Both the position numbers and the translations under genes were made by a program. A stretch of DNA of 64,000 nucleotides from Pyruvatibacter sp. HU-CL02332 (GTDB lineage: Bacteria > Pseudomonadota > Alphaproteobacteria > CGMCC-115125): NCBI RefSeq assembly GCF_040362765.1, contig NZ_BAABWK010000002.1, positions 310,001 through 374,000 on the forward strand. Reading direction: 5' to 3'. Position 1 is the first letter of the stretch. Each line of letters begins with the position of its first letter. Positions 36,431 through 42,250 of the stretch are shown here, piece after piece. The notes under the pieces are model-generated. The model searched no databases. It was given only the letters and a program-made list of their open reading frames with translations, and was not told the DNA's origin.

Positions 36431-36976
36431 CTAGTTGATCTGGCGAACCGCGAAACCTTCGAAGCTTTCAGCCACATCGTCGTCGATCATGTGGCTATAG
36501 GCCAGGTCCAGACCATTATCGGTCAGGGTCCGCTTGTAGACGCGGTAGTTGGCTTCGTCAGAGCGCTTGAACGACAGCATGGTGATGGTGAGGGTGTCGC
36601 CGGCAATACGTGCCCAGGCACAGCCGACCTGTGACACCGGATTGCAGTCATCCTGCGCTTCAAAAACGCCGGGCTGATCTGTTGGATCAAACACCAGGGT
36701 CATGGAGTGCTGCTCTTCTTCCCCGGCTGACCACAGCACTTCACGCTGCGAGACGATGAAGCCGCTGGCACCCTTGGGATAGATCTGCACATCAAGGTCT
36801 GTCCCGCGGAAATCCACATTCTCCATGGCACCGGTCGTGGCCGTTACGCCGTCGCCCAGCCACTGGCCGAGGAATGGCTCAATGCCGGTAAATGCATTGG
36901 CAGACGGCGCGCCGAACATTGCAGCCATTGCTGCCAATGCGGCTGCCAGACGGAGTCTGGCCGTTGTTTTCTTCAT
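36431..36976 (-). CDS. Secreted protein of unknown function, lipocalin-like size
   Basis: 181 residues from the ATG at 36976 (GGGGAGAG upstream); the reading to 37144 lacks coding character. A clear signal peptide ends near PSANA-FTG (residue 28). The mature part begins FTGIEPFLGQWLGDGV and is beta-rich, with two Cys (QDDCNPVSQVGCAW) that could form a disulphide. FLGQWLG is the type of start seen in small lipid-binding barrels, but I do not recognise the family. It is the last gene of the leftward group, 180 bases behind the DUF3089 gene. Confidence 0.78.
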   Translation of the reverse strand: MKKTTARLRLAAALAAMAAMFGAPSANAFTGIEPFLGQWLGDGVTATTGAMENVDFRGTDLDVQIYPKGASGFIVSQREVLWSAGEEEQHSMTLVFDPTDQPGVFEAQDDCNPVSQVGCAWARIAGDTLTITMLSFKRSDEANYRVYKRTLTDNGLDLAYSHMIDDDVAESFEGFAVRQIN

Positions 36977-37149
36977 GGTTTTCTCTCCCCTAGGCCCGGC
37001 AGCTTTTGCGCTCGAGCTGTCACGCTTCCATCCCGGATGGTCCGTCATTTGGGTGCGGACTCGTTTCCTTGGATGAAAGCCTAGCGCTGCTGCGACCAAA
37101 CGCCAACGGGGCAGGAGTGCGGTGCAGCAATTACGCGGACACACGTGCG

Positions 37150-37174
37150 TATATGGCTACTGAATCGCCATATA
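37150..37174 (-). other. Inverted repeat across the DUF3089 stop
   Basis: TATATGGC and GCCATATA (37150-37157 and 37167-37174) form a perfect 8-base stem around a 9-base loop covering the stop codon. No T-run follows. It may be an RNA stability hairpin or chance. Confidence 0.35.
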
Positions 37175-38320
37175 TGCTGCAGCGCGCAATGCTGCGTTCT
37201 CGCGGATCGAGCCATAGAAGAGATTGTAGTCGTAGACGTGGTAGTCCTCATTCTCGAACACCAGTTCACCGAACTCATCCGGCGGCAGCTGGTCCATGTA
37301 GGCAATGCCGCCTCGGCACTGGACTAAGACATCCAGCACCTGCGGGTCGGCCAGCCGGGTCACGGGCTGTTCCTCGCCCAGAGCGGCCGCATAGGGCAGG
37401 GCACCTTTGTGAAGGTCGCCGCCGGCAGCCTCGCCATTGTCGCTCCAGCTAAGTGGATTGGTGCAGTTGATGGCGCGCCCGGCGACAGGCACGAGGTCGC
37501 TGCCTTCCCAGATGCGCTGCTGATCAAACCACACCTTGGGGTCCCCATCGGGCCCAAAGGAATTGAAGCTGACAAGGCAGCCCGTCTGGTCAGGCTCCGC
37601 ACACGGAGGAACATGCGCCAGCAATCCGTCAAACAGGTGGGACGGCATGGACATGCCGACAGGATAGGCCGCAACAAGTCGCTGCTTGAGCTCAGGGCGC
37701 TTGAGATAGTCCTGCATCAGGCGAATGAGATGCAGTGAGCCCTGACTGTGGGCGGCAAGGATAAAGGGGCGCCCATTGTTGTAGAGGCGGATATAGGTCT
37801 CGAAGGCGCGTGCGACATCCTGATAAGCAAGGTCGAGCGCCAATTCTCCCTGCGGCTCTTCAAGCTCTGCCCAGGGTTCCATGAAGGCATAGATGGCAGC
37901 CTGACGGTATCGCGGCGCATACACCCGGCCAGCCAGATTGTACGCACTCGCCTGATGGGCCATCACCGCATTGTCGATGATGTAGCGAGAGGCCACGTCG
38001 TTGATGTCCGCGTTCCATGCCTCACTGGTGAGGAAGGTCGTGGGGTGGATAAAGAAAACGTCGATCCGTGCTGCTTCATCCGCGACTGCCGGTGACATGC
38101 CTGCTGGACTCAAATCTGCCGTGTCTGCGCGGCCGGGCATGGCGGCCCAGGCTTCGGGCGTTTCATAGTCCGGTGCCGCAGGCGGTGTGAACTCGGCGAA
38201 TGGTTTTCCCGGATTTACGTAGTAGGCAACCAACTCCCCGCGGAACAGGTACGCGGCAGCACCGCCAATCGCAATCAGCGCGACAAGTCCCGCTGCTCCC
38301 CAAGCCAGATATCGCAGCAC
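37157..38320 (-). CDS. DUF3089 alpha/beta hydrolase, membrane-anchored
   Basis: 387 residues. Residues 5-26 are a signal anchor. The DUF3089 pattern follows: ARIDVFFIHPTTFL, NADINDVASRYIIDN, and AHSQGSLHLIRLM with the nucleophile Ser; the C-terminal half has QDYLKRPEL and YVDYNLFYG-like VYDYNLFYGSIREN. Members resemble lysophospholipases and are found in Alphaproteobacteria; the substrate is unknown. Its orientation and a 69-base gap suggest it is transcribed with the YceI and enoyl-CoA hydratase genes upstream. Confidence 0.87.
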   Translation of the reverse strand: MLRYLAWGAAGLVALIAIGGAAAYLFRGELVAYYVNPGKPFAEFTPPAAPDYETPEAWAAMPGRADTADLSPAGMSPAVADEAARIDVFFIHPTTFLTSEAWNADINDVASRYIIDNAVMAHQASAYNLAGRVYAPRYRQAAIYAFMEPWAELEEPQGELALDLAYQDVARAFETYIRLYNNGRPFILAAHSQGSLHLIRLMQDYLKRPELKQRLVAAYPVGMSMPSHLFDGLLAHVPPCAEPDQTGCLVSFNSFGPDGDPKVWFDQQRIWEGSDLVPVAGRAINCTNPLSWSDNGEAAGGDLHKGALPYAAALGEEQPVTRLADPQVLDVLVQCRGGIAYMDQLPPDEFGELVFENEDYHVYDYNLFYGSIRENAALRAAAYMAIQ

Positions 38321-38389: not shown

Positions 38390-38983
38390 CTACTCGTCGT
38401 CGCGCTGGAGCAGTTCGGTTTCAATCACCAGCGTGATGTCGTCGCCCACAAAACTCAGACCGAAATCCATTCCAAAGTCAGAGCGCTTGATAGCGCCACT
38501 GGCTGAAAAACCCCAGCGTGTTGTTCTGGAGGAAAATGGATCAGATGCGGTTCCATTGAAAGCGACATCCAGCACAATTGGTCGGGTCTCCCCCAGGAGC
38601 GTGAAGTCGCCGCTGAGTTTTCCTGTCGTTTCGCTGGTCACATCGAGGCCCGTGGCCTTGAAGGTCATGGTTGGATGATCCTCAACATCAAACCATGAGC
38701 CGCCCATGAGATTGTCGTCCCGGGCCTTCAGACCGCTGTCGAGACTGGCCACATCGATCGTGAGTTCAACCACCACACCTTCAGGCCGATCAACGTCGAG
38801 GACGGCGCGTCCTTCAAACTTCTCGAACTCACCATAGGTCCGTGACAGGCCCAGATGCATGACGCTGAACATGATGTGCGTGTGGCCAGGGTCGAAATCC
38901 AGCTGCACGGTTTCAGACCGGGCTGGCGACAAACCAATAAGCACCGCTGCTATCAGCGCGGATACACCAGACAGAAAACGCAT
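38390..38983 (-). CDS. YceI family periplasmic lipid-binding protein
   Basis: 197 residues. A signal peptide (MRFLSGVSALIAAVLIGLSP) is followed by the YceI eight-strand barrel pattern: DPGHTHIMFSVMHLGLS, FDVEDHPTMTFKATGL, and GDFTLLGETRPIVLDVAF. YceI proteins bind polyisoprenoids or other long hydrophobic molecules. Its start overlaps the stop of the enoyl-CoA hydratase gene by one base (TGATG), coupling a periplasmic lipid carrier to acyl-CoA enzymes. Confidence 0.92.
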   Translation of the reverse strand: MRFLSGVSALIAAVLIGLSPARSETVQLDFDPGHTHIMFSVMHLGLSRTYGEFEKFEGRAVLDVDRPEGVVVELTIDVASLDSGLKARDDNLMGGSWFDVEDHPTMTFKATGLDVTSETTGKLSGDFTLLGETRPIVLDVAFNGTASDPFSSRTTRWGFSASGAIKRSDFGMDFGLSFVGDDITLVIETELLQRDDE

Positions 38984-39780
38984 CAGGCAATCTCTCCATC
39001 GCCGGTCAGAAACTCTTTCATGGCGTCCATGGCTTCAGGATCATCCGCCAGCAGGCGCATAAATTCCGCGCGCTCGTCAGCGAGCCCCTGTGACAGGGTT
39101 TTCTGGGTTGCCGACTTCACCAGCATTTTCGCCGCCGCAAGGGAGCGGGGCGTCTTTTGCGCCAGCTCCTTGCCCAGACCTACAGCGGCGGCGACCACAT
39201 CGCCAGTCTCAAATCTGTGAACGAGACCCAACTCTGCCGCTTCCTCCGGGCCGGCGACGCGACCGCGCAGGATCATCTCCAGTGCCCGTGCTTCCCCAAT
39301 GACGCGGGGCAGCCGCTGCGTGCCGCCGGCGCCGGGAAAAATGCCGATATTGGTTTCCGGCAGACCAATCGTGTAAGCGCCCTGGCCGGCGATCCGGAAA
39401 TCACAGCACAGCGCAAACTCAAAACCACCGCCCATGCACATGCCGTTGATGGCGGCGATGGTGGGCTTGGGGCAATTATCGACGCGATTGAACAGAATGG
39501 AGATGTCGGTCTCTGCGGCAGCACTTTCCACAATGTCGTCAACGCTGCGCCCGGTGGATTTGACAAAGTCACCTGCCGCGATGATCTCCTCCACATCGTA
39601 GTGACGGATAAAGACGTTCGGCAGCCCGCCGGTGAACACAATGGCCCGCACATTGTCGTCCTGCTCATAGGCAGCGACGATGCGATCAAGCTCCTTCACC
39701 ATTTCCATGTTCATGTAGCCCATGGGCGGGTTTTCAAAGGTTACGATGGCAACCGGGCCGTCATCAGACATCATGATCAT
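38983..39780 (-). CDS. Enoyl-CoA hydratase/isomerase family protein
   Basis: 265 residues. Crotonase-fold motifs are complete: oxyanion loop AINGMCMGGGFEFALCCDFRIA (about 105-126) and the catalytic PETNIGIFPGAGGTQRL. The acid/base glutamates are both present (GGGFE and LPE). It adds water to, or isomerises, 2-enoyl-CoA. The N-terminal VTFENPPMGYMNMEMV is in the place of the usual NRP..NAL segment and is slightly unusual. AGGAGA lies upstream of the ATG at 39780. It lies 21 bases behind the DUF6285 gene and overlaps yceI by one base. Confidence 0.92.
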   Translation of the reverse strand: MIMMSDDGPVAIVTFENPPMGYMNMEMVKELDRIVAAYEQDDNVRAIVFTGGLPNVFIRHYDVEEIIAAGDFVKSTGRSVDDIVESAAAETDISILFNRVDNCPKPTIAAINGMCMGGGFEFALCCDFRIAGQGAYTIGLPETNIGIFPGAGGTQRLPRVIGEARALEMILRGRVAGPEEAAELGLVHRFETGDVVAAAVGLGKELAQKTPRSLAAAKMLVKSATQKTLSQGLADERAEFMRLLADDPEAMDAMKEFLTGDGEIA

Positions 39781-39801
39781 GACTTGTCTCCTGCTGAGGG
39801 G

Positions 39802-40191
39802 TTACACATCGAGCGTATTGGTCTGCTCAATCGCTCTTTTGTATGCAGCGTAGCGCGGCTGATCGATGGACAGTTTGGTGAGCGTCGTGGCCCAAAGATG
39901 ATCCGCCAGGTGGGGCGTATCCAGTGTGACGCGTCCTTCGCGGATCTCCGTGCAGAGCTCTTCGTTCAGATCCTGCAACATGCCACCATGGCCCAACAGG
40001 CCTTCAAGGCGTTCAGATTCCTGCGCGTTATCACTGGGCGCGATGGCCAGTTCGCGTTCGACGATGGCAAGCGCGTTCGCAGCCACGCGGGCGTGGAAAG
40101 CGTCGTGGCCTTCCAGCTTCGGCATCGCCACTTTTTCTAGGAACTCGCGCACGGCTGTCACGAGATCATGGGCTGCTGGTTGGTCCTGCAT
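39802..40191 (-). CDS. DUF6285 (LvaB-like) small protein
   Basis: 129 residues, predicted all helical and without membrane segments. The pattern QDQPAAHDLVTAVREFLE, ALAIVERELA and RYAAYKRAIE is that of DUF6285 proteins, encoded next to APH-type kinases. In Pseudomonas putida the small partner LvaB is needed for the kinase LvaA to phosphorylate 4-hydroxyvaleryl-CoA; similarity of this protein to LvaB is my inference from context and size. Its start overlaps the kinase stop by one base. Confidence 0.8.
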   Translation of the reverse strand: MQDQPAAHDLVTAVREFLEKVAMPKLEGHDAFHARVAANALAIVERELAIAPSDNAQESERLEGLLGHGGMLQDLNEELCTEIREGRVTLDTPHLADHLWATTLTKLSIDQPRYAAYKRAIEQTNTLDV

Positions 40192-41222
40192 TATTTTTGT
40201 CCTCCGCGCGGCGCCAGAAGGGTGAGTAGGTCAATCTCCGTTTCAGATGACCGCCTGCCAATGGCCGCCCGCTCTACAGAGCGGTCCATGCCACTGGTGA
40301 AGGCCGACACCATGATCATGCACATGATGCCCCATTTGAGCGTGCCCAGAACTTCCCAGTATTTGACACGCTCAGGATCGACGGTGGCACCGCCGGCGGC
40401 TTCATATCCGGCGAACATATCCTCGCGAGAGCCAAAGCCTCCTACCGGATTGTCAATTTCGCCAAAGCGCCAGGAGTTGACGCAGATCCAGCCTAGATCC
40501 TCCATCGGATCACCCACATGGGCGAGTTCCCAGTCGAGCACGGCACGCACACCATCCGCCCCGATCATCAGATTGCCATTGCGGAAGTCACCATGCACAA
40601 GGGTCAGGCTGTCATCCGTCGGCAGGTTGTCTTCCAGATATCTGAATGCCAGCTCGAAGACCGGGTGCGGGTGCTTCATCGAGTTGTAGATGTCGCGGTA
40701 CTTGTCGATTTCAGACCGGGCCGGTGACGTTTGTATCTCCGGCAGCGAGCCGCGTGGCACGGCGTGAATGCGGGCAAGGATTTCTCCGCACTGGCGTGCC
40801 AGCTTTGGCCGGGCGTCCGCATATTCCGCATCACGCAATATCTTGCGGGCAATGGTTTCGCCTTCAATGCGGTCCATCACAAACCCGTCGCCCAGATCAT
40901 CGGCATCGGTGAGCACAAGCTTGACCGGGGGAACCGGCACGCCCTGCTTGGCGGCCAGCTGAATGAGCGCCGCTTCGGTCGCCAGAGGAACCGCTGTATC
41001 GCGTTTGTTGTTGGTGCTGCCGCCAGGGGCGCGGCGCAGGATCAGGTGATGGTTGTTATGCCCGGCCTGAGCTTCAAATGCCCATGTCTCCTGACTGGCT
41101 CCGCCGGACAGCCGACGGACGCCGCCCACATGTTCCGTATTGGCCCAGACACGTCCCAGAGCCTTCTTGAGTGGCTGTGCCAGCACGTGCGGTGTGTCGT
41201 CCAGTTTTGCAGCGCTACTCAT
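40191..41222 (-). CDS. APH/ACAD10-type phosphotransferase (LvaA-like acyl-CoA kinase candidate)
   Basis: 343 residues. Protein-kinase-like fold with VRRLSGGASQETWAFEA as the nucleotide loop, the catalytic loop HGDFRNGNLMIG (about 204-215) and the metal motif LDWELAHVGDPMEDLGW. The subgroup is that of the N-terminal kinase of human ACAD10/11 and of LvaA, which phosphorylate 4-hydroxyacyl-CoAs. Substrate not proven here. ATGA overlap with the DUF7064/7065-like gene upstream and one-base overlap with the DUF6285 gene downstream show tight coupling. No acyl-CoA dehydrogenase gene of the ACAD10/LvaC type is in the window. Confidence 0.9.
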   Translation of the reverse strand: MSSAAKLDDTPHVLAQPLKKALGRVWANTEHVGGVRRLSGGASQETWAFEAQAGHNNHHLILRRAPGGSTNNKRDTAVPLATEAALIQLAAKQGVPVPPVKLVLTDADDLGDGFVMDRIEGETIARKILRDAEYADARPKLARQCGEILARIHAVPRGSLPEIQTSPARSEIDKYRDIYNSMKHPHPVFELAFRYLEDNLPTDDSLTLVHGDFRNGNLMIGADGVRAVLDWELAHVGDPMEDLGWICVNSWRFGEIDNPVGGFGSREDMFAGYEAAGGATVDPERVKYWEVLGTLKWGIMCMIMVSAFTSGMDRSVERAAIGRRSSETEIDLLTLLAPRGGQK

Positions 41223-42250
41223 GACGCGATGCTCACGGGCTTGCCGTCAACGATCTGGTCGAGATATTCCGACAGGCCGTACCCAACCTGACCGTTGCAA
41301 GTGTACTCGGTCATGCCTTCGGTGATGCGGGTCAGCATTTCTTCGCCGTCAGGTGTCTTGCGGCGGTTGCGCAAGGGAATGAGCGACATCACCTTGCCTG
41401 ACACTTCATAGTCGGCGCCGCTTTGCGTCTTGATGCGGGCGGTGAGGGCGGTCTGGTACCAGTTCTCGTCCCAGTCGCTGTCGATCTCGGCATGGTCGAT
41501 CAGATCGTATTTGCCGTCTTTCAGCACCATGCCGCCCATGCGACTTTGGCCTTCGGCATTTGTCACGATGGAAATCATCATCGCGAAGTCAGCGCCAAAG
41601 TTCATCGGCAACCAACGATACCAGTGGATCGCCTGCCAGTACCGTGGTCCCCACGACTTGTCGCGCAGGCCGTGGCCGGAGACGTCAAAGCGTTCATCGC
41701 CAATGATGAAGTGCCCCGAAGCGGCCATGTGCTGCTCGTAATGTGCCTTGGCAAAACTCTTTTCCGGATCGATCTCCAGCGAAGAGCCGTCTTCTTTCAC
41801 GGTCTCACCGCCAAACATCGGCGAGACGCCCTCATAGGCAAGATCAACCTCACAATCGACAATCGGGTTGTTCTTGAAGGCGGCTGCCGGGTCCGCCATC
41901 TCGTTGGGATCGGTCAGCACGCAGACCTTGCCCTTGTAGGTGACGCGTAGCTTCTTGAACGGCTCCACGACCTCAAAATGCATGCCGCCGGCCTTAAGCT
42001 CCTTGTTGCCGTCGATCTTGGGGCGCGCATACATGAACGCGACTCGCCCGTCCGGCAGATACAGGCAGTTGGTCATTTCGGCGTAGCCCTCATTCGGGCG
42101 ATTGCCCAGACGGAACCAGCCACCGATCTTCTGATCGGGGTCAAACATGTTGAAATACATGCTCTCATTGTAGTTGGACGCTGCGTCAGGCTCGTGGCAG
42201 TACTCGTCTTCAGGCTCCAGGCGGACGCGATATCCTTCAGGGATTTTCAT
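41219..42250 (-). CDS. DUF7064/DUF7065-like protein of unknown function
   Basis: 343 residues from the ATG at 42250 (GAGGAA 9 bases before); the longer reading to 42283 is less likely. Beta-rich throughout, with many Trp and Tyr and no signal or membrane segment. Motifs visible: NESMYFNMFDPDQKIGGWFRLG, CEVDLAYEGVSPMFGG, AHYEQHMAASGHF, and GHGLRDKSWGPRYWQAIHWYRWL. The last resembles the double lipocalin fold of the AttH/CrtC type, suggesting binding or hydration of an isoprenoid or lipid, but this is inference. It is the first gene of the coupled kinase operon. Confidence 0.72.
   Translation of the reverse strand: MKIPEGYRVRLEPEDEYCHEPDAASNYNESMYFNMFDPDQKIGGWFRLGNRPNEGYAEMTNCLYLPDGRVAFMYARPKIDGNKELKAGGMHFEVVEPFKKLRVTYKGKVCVLTDPNEMADPAAAFKNNPIVDCEVDLAYEGVSPMFGGETVKEDGSSLEIDPEKSFAKAHYEQHMAASGHFIIGDERFDVSGHGLRDKSWGPRYWQAIHWYRWLPMNFGADFAMMISIVTNAEGQSRMGGMVLKDGKYDLIDHAEIDSDWDENWYQTALTARIKTQSGADYEVSGKVMSLIPLRNRRKTPDGEEMLTRITEGMTEYTCNGQVGYGLSEYLDQIVDGKPVSIAS

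Follow-up and report, generated by a model that had tools for sequence, protein, structure and literature searches.

Hydroxyl groups that lie off the beta position block beta-oxidation, and two phosphorylation-based solutions to this block are known: the Lva and ACAD10/ACAD11 route, which relies on a flavin acyl-CoA dehydrogenase (ACAD), and the sterol route, which relies on 25-hydroxysteroid kinase (25-HSK) and 25-phosphosteroid lyase (25-PSL). Here, we describe an operon of Pyruvatibacter sp. HU-CL02332 that seems to combine a kinase from the first route with a lyase from the second. Its five core genes occupy positions 38390-42250 of the window, by which we mean the whole stretch of 64,000 nucleotides that was analysed (C2:310001-374000 in a genome of 3.45 Mb).

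In Pseudomonas, LvaA and LvaB associate and form 4-phosphovaleryl-CoA (PMC6692424), and in both LvaA/LvaC and ACAD10/11, acting on 4-hydroxyacyl-CoA, it is the flavin ACAD that eliminates the phosphate (PMC11342911, PMC12440821). In anaerobic cholesterol degradation, phosphorylation by 25-HSK is followed by elimination by a C-O lyase (PMC8449060, PMC11061730), with no lyase candidate near the kinase gene of Sterolibacterium denitrificans (PMC8449060). A further point of comparison is the published Rv3168-Rv3169 operon of Mycobacterium tuberculosis (PMC5340868), whose APH kinase has a solved structure (3ats/3att), published as that of a putative aminoglycoside phosphotransferase (PMC3691515). 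A literature search found no paper using the names DUF7064, DUF7065 or DUF6285, the families to which two of the proteins described below belong.

The operon comprises five open reading frames (ORFs), all on the minus strand: gene 1 (42250-41219), a DUF7065/DUF7064 protein of 343 aa that we propose as a phospho-acyl lyase (Pfam DUF7064 6e-37, DUF7065 2.6e-14); gene 2 (41222-40191), an APH-fold, LvaA-like kinase, likewise of 343 aa (APH 8.9e-39); gene 3 (40191-39802), a DUF6285 protein of 129 aa resembling the kinase subunit LvaB (DUF6285 9.5e-36); gene 4 (39780-38983), an enoyl-CoA hydratase (ECH), or crotonase (ECH_1 1e-46); and gene 5 (38983-38390), a YceI-like protein (YceI 2.2e-39). Successive genes are joined by a 4-base overlap (ATGA), a 1-base overlap (TAATG), a 21-base gap and a 1-base overlap (TGATG); these coordinates and domains agree with the five leftward, closely coupled genes reported by a first-pass annotation made from the sequence alone. 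DUF7064 and DUF6285 each occur once in the whole genome. A promoter scan returned a single weak site (42348-42321), not above chance.

Comparison with the described systems places the locus between them. As in the Lva pathway, an LvaA-like kinase gene overlaps the gene for DUF6285, the family of LvaB, by 1 base; unlike the Lva operon, there is no LvaC (the ACAD), LvaD or LvaE here, and the operon has a phospholyase homologue and a crotonase instead. With the 25-HSK/25-PSL system the locus would share a two-step, ATP-dependent logic of dehydration, and it encodes a lyase homologue that retains the motif Asp, but its kinase and lyase genes overlap, its kinase is of the LvaA type with an LvaB subunit, and its lyase is only about 20% identical. 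The mammalian ACAD10 and ACAD11 have a kinase domain related to gene 2 and likewise couple phosphorylation to phosphate elimination, on 4-hydroxyacyl-CoA, but elimination falls to a fused flavin ACAD domain that has no counterpart in this operon. The operon would work like both 25-HSK/25-PSL and LvaAB, yet is a full member of neither system; the ACAD, the short-chain dehydrogenase/reductase and the synthetase of the lva operon have no counterpart in it.

A single-sequence phmmer search of solved structures with gene 1 retrieved 25-PSL (9fzn, 9g2i, 9g4c) at 5e-6. A profile built from 28 homologues matched 25-PSL over nearly the full chain (E 1.1e-13), with AttH (2ich) next at 0.0019 and no match to kievitone hydratase. 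The AlphaFold (AF2) model, made with 42 homologues as input, reached a predicted local distance difference test score (pLDDT) of 94 and a predicted template modelling score (pTM) of 0.90; in Foldseek its five highest-ranked matches were all 25-PSL chains (E 1e-15), and VIA-align superposed it on 9g4c with a Z of 24.5, at 3.2 A over 280 residues; identity to 25-PSL is 21%. As comparable Z values were obtained for AttH (2ich, 25.6), kievitone hydratase (7a0t, 22.9) and the decalin-forming pericyclases, the fold family is broader than the lyases, and it is sequence that singles out 25-PSL among these relatives. By full-length sequence and fold homology taken together, gene 1 is a member of the 25-phosphosteroid lyase superfamily.

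A sequence motif supports this assignment. The structure 9g4c shows a 25-PSL chain in complex with phosphate and the product desmost-1,4-diene-3-one, and over the aligned range (18-351) this chain differs from wild-type 25-PSL at one position, D176N, within GSRDRSWGVR; we read this mutant as a sign that the Asp has a catalytic role in the enzyme. Its equivalent in gene 1 is D197, in the motif RDKSWGPR (residues 196-203; 41642-41665, minus strand; RDxSWGxR in general form), of which R196, D197, G201 and R203 show no variation across 28/28 diverse and 42/42 closer homologues. In AttH the Asp and the Trp of this motif are present and both Arg are absent. Since gene 1 is a 25-PSL homologue with the motif Asp conserved, the operon holds its own likely phosphate-eliminating enzyme. 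The first-pass annotation had left the phospho-acyl-CoA to the hydratase or to distant genes, a suggestion that gives way to the obvious candidate at the head of the operon.

For gene 2, the top PDB matches were 3dxp and the ACAD11 kinase domain, and the catalytic loop HGDFRNGN (H210-N217; 40572-40595, minus strand) is intact by alignment to HRDYRTGN of LvaA. The reference lva-type operon, on a Pseudomonas aeruginosa plasmid, consists of genes for a regulator, kinase, annotated lvaB, ACAD, short-chain dehydrogenase/reductase, acyl-CoA synthetase and transporter; the protein annotated there as LvaB falls in DUF6285 (E 4.8e-24), and identities to this operon are 35% for gene 2 against the kinase and 34% for gene 3 against LvaB. 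The earlier description of the pair as LvaAB-like is thus well founded, and the intact catalytic loop and adjoining LvaB-family gene give good grounds for predicting that genes 2 and 3 form an LvaAB-type pair. The model of gene 3 (pLDDT 88, all-helical) found no PDB match in Foldseek better than E 4, and its sequence none that was convincing, so that its fold, lacking a PDB match, gave no functional clue. Elsewhere, three lva-like operons (L088, L018, L089) have a gene of the histidine phosphatase family adjoining LvaB, whose product may perhaps clear phosphate from stalled phospho-acyl-CoA.

We propose, at a probability of roughly 0.6, that the operon is an ATP-dependent dehydration module feeding beta-oxidation. 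Firstly, the LvaA/LvaB-like pair would phosphorylate a hydroxyl beyond the reach of ordinary beta-oxidation (one that is tertiary, at the gamma position or still further out), with an acyl-CoA as its most likely carrier. Secondly, the beta-barrel enzyme encoded by gene 1 would receive this same intermediate and eliminate its phosphate to leave an alkene, with D197 as the putative catalytic residue and R196 and R203 probably holding the phosphate; elimination itself would require no flavin ACAD. Thirdly, the crotonase would hydrate the resulting enoyl-CoA, or isomerise it first, to give 3-hydroxyacyl-CoA. The simplest route would accordingly lead from hydroxyacyl-CoA through phosphoacyl-CoA and enoyl-CoA to 3-hydroxyacyl-CoA. 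Gene 4 resembles characterised crotonases in having both catalytic Glu residues (E121 and E142, aligned to 3-hydroxypropionyl-CoA dehydratase 5zai), but it has no match to a specific, equivalog-level NCBIfam model at its cut-off.

Gene neighbourhoods point to a partnership between lyase and kinase. The order lyase, kinase, DUF6285, ECH and YceI, with DUF3089 downstream, was found in 4/4 genomes of the genus (surveys at order and family level amounted to this one genus and its four genomes), and in another family of the class lyase, kinase and DUF6285 occur together with ECH, DUF3089 or both. Because the order is shared by the whole genus and partly by other families, the five-gene arrangement is not a product of chance, and the conservation beyond a single strain on which the first-pass annotation depended is borne out. 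In a set of 385 genomes from the class, 29 carry DUF7064 and 88 carry DUF6285, with both present in 26 of the 29 (odds ratio 41; 15/17 when counted by genus, relatedness not being corrected for). Amongst the 80 nearest named lyase loci, 74 had room downstream, and in 26 of these 74 a kinase lies directly downstream of the lyase, against a chance expectation of ~0.1, usually with DUF6285 next. Such loci span Parvibaculum and other Parvibaculaceae/Rhodobiaceae, several Gammaproteobacteria/Pseudomonadales, and metagenome-assembled genomes labelled Myxococcota and Actinomycetota, and more distant lyases have kinase neighbours too. The lyase-adjacent kinases are spread over several deep clades of the kinase tree (where long branches make exact placement unsure), and for this reason the pairing seems to be a recurrent one. 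In Variovorax, Cupriavidus, Embleya, G326/G247, G205 and Phenylobacterium, crotonases that share only 26-36% identity with gene 4 are found next to or not far from the lyase or kinase. Acyl-CoA synthetases and ACADs also turn up often as neighbours; together, these genes point to acyl-CoA chemistry.

Several observations weigh against the proposed module. Beta-elimination from a 4-phosphoacyl-CoA would yield a 3-enoyl-CoA, and isomerisation would then be needed. None of the close homologues has a known activity, and identity to 25-PSL is as low as noted above. Many lyase orthologues are solitary (Hyphomonas, most Phenylobacterium, SAR86), whilst loci L077-L082 carry kinase and DUF6285, with or without ECH and DUF3089, and no lyase at that place; the lyase and the kinase-DUF6285 pair are thus not strictly dependent on lying side by side. 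In Sulfitobacter alexandrii an Asp-type (LvaC-like) ACAD and the lyase share one gene run, and an ACAD of another type (E-type) accompanies kinase-DUF6285 in three lineages and has a 67% identical relative in this genome, so that the pathway may include an ACAD and an ordinary dehydrogenation may be one of its steps. It is this ACAD evidence, together with the separate occurrence of lyase and kinase-DUF6285, that holds our confidence at the level given.

The solitary lyases of marine SAR86 (L198, L187) stand beside a luciferase-like monooxygenase (LLM oxidoreductase) and a major facilitator superfamily (MFS) transporter, and neighbours of solitary lyases in SAR86 and Phenylobacterium gave no consistent hint of a substrate. 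At L077-L085, several of the lyase-less kinase-DUF6285 pairs lie beside ORFs of ~700 aa and 1160 aa, probably recG and mfd, as is also the case at the lyase-bearing loci; the lyase was perhaps gained or lost at one old site.

The ACAD evidence also underlies the explanation that survives best after our own, which we nevertheless regard as unlikely: that kinase and DUF6285 act as in lva, that an ACAD of the ACAD11/LvaC type encoded elsewhere eliminates the phosphate, and that gene 1 does another job on the same substrate family. The statement in the first-pass annotation that an ACAD gene is missing holds for the window, within which the family has no match, but fails genome-wide, where 32 ACAD-family matches were found, six of them with the catalytic Asp of the ACAD11/LvaC type (ADGPDEVH and variants). 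ACAD11 ranks first among the PDB matches of the best of these, which favours such a division of labour, but even this nearest match to an LvaC-like ACAD is only 37% identical, and none of the six has a kinase within 1.5 kb. At L211 (C2:1143880-1151444), however, an ACAD11-type enzyme is encoded at a distance of 3-6 kb from a pair of other APH kinase genes, which flank a gene for an MscS channel. A second candidate, at C1:959928-961223 (L093:8926-10224), shares 67-71% identity with ACADs that adjoin kinase-DUF6285 or lie close to it in Sulfitobacter pontiacus (67%), Phenylobacterium and G361, and the genomes described above in which kinase-DUF6285 has no adjoining lyase add to the case; yet this ACAD is of the E type, with the site ITEGAEE and no Asp. 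Its gene is flanked by a TetR gene on one side and a histidine kinase gene on the other, with a flavin-containing monooxygenase (FMO)-like gene beyond. An eliminating ACAD would moreover leave unexplained both the tight coupling of lyase and kinase and the conserved 25-PSL motif.

The module might also take as its substrate a tertiary alcohol that is free and not bound to CoA, for example a side chain of the sterol, hopanoid or terpenoid type, in the manner of 25-HSK/25-PSL and with the crotonase engaged only later, a prospect that we consider rather improbable. It draws on the fact that, among solved structures, gene 1 has its closest relative in 25-PSL, and that kievitone hydratase, an enzyme acting on a prenyl group, shares its fold; YceI proteins, moreover, can bind isoprenoids. 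Against these stand a kinase like LvaA and ACAD11 with an LvaB-like subunit, where the one characterised pair acts on acyl-CoA, and the recurrence of crotonases and acyl-CoA synthetases as neighbours; among the loci examined, YceI adjoins the module in this genus only. The hydrophobic or isoprenoid substrate put forward by the first-pass annotation stays a guess for that reason, although 25-PSL and kievitone hydratase, the closest relatives of gene 1 with solved structures, do act on tertiary carbons of the prenyl type.

A hydratase role for gene 1, of the AttH, CrtC or kievitone hydratase type, in which it would make the alcohol for the kinase and the lyase step would take place elsewhere, seems very doubtful: the common fold and similar Z values would allow it, but in sequence gene 1 is far nearer to 25-PSL than to AttH, with kievitone hydratase unmatched, and the Arg residues flanking the motif are common to gene 1 and 25-PSL and not to AttH. 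That the kinase is an antibiotic-resistance phosphotransferase with incidental neighbours can be practically dismissed, for despite its APH Pfam domain and weak matches to APH(3') models, gene 2 scores far under the cut-off of every resistance model (42.7 bits against 205 for APH(3')), and it has an LvaB-like partner within a conserved neighbourhood of acyl-CoA genes.

If the proposed dehydration module is correct, it would provide a specific, testable activity for DUF7064/7065 and a role for LvaB/DUF6285 outside levulinate metabolism. A broader extension, which we offer tentatively and at somewhat less than even odds, is that DUF7064/7065 proteins are widespread flavin-free acyl-CoA phosphate lyases and, with LvaAB-type kinases, constitute a second, ACAD-independent means of removing non-beta hydroxyls, Rv3168-Rv3169 included. 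This mycobacterial operon likewise combines an APH kinase with a distant relative of gene 1 (which matches the Rv3169 family model at 1.7e-16, below that model's cut-off); unlike the present locus, it is far diverged, and no DUF6285 gene was seen beside a related pair in Mycobacterium branderi. The comparison suggests, as a lead and not a result, that Rv3168-Rv3169 carries out the same chemistry, which would give a function to Rv3168, a putative aminoglycoside-resistance enzyme, and to Rv3169, of unknown function. Kinase genes paired with distant DUF7064-type genes occur in actinobacteria (L019, L017), and Rv3168-Rv3169 appears to be one such pair.

Gene 5, the YceI-like protein, is accessory and has a signal-peptide-like N-terminus by inspection. 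Downstream of it, after gaps of 69 and 12 bases respectively, follow gene 6 (37157-38320, minus strand), a DUF3089 protein (Pfam 4.4e-62) that is a conserved neighbour and a likely extension of the operon, and gene 7 (36431-37144, minus strand), which matches no Pfam or NCBIfam family. DUF3089, an accessory gene like YceI, recurs 3' of the module in Parvibaculaceae and relatives, and gene 7 follows it in 4/4 genomes of the genus; because both genes follow YceI here and across the genus, the unit may be one of seven genes, reaching 36431. Finally, several diverged copies of DUF7064 are clustered at L070 and L071 (G208, G297) and in G100, which are small genomes of one family.

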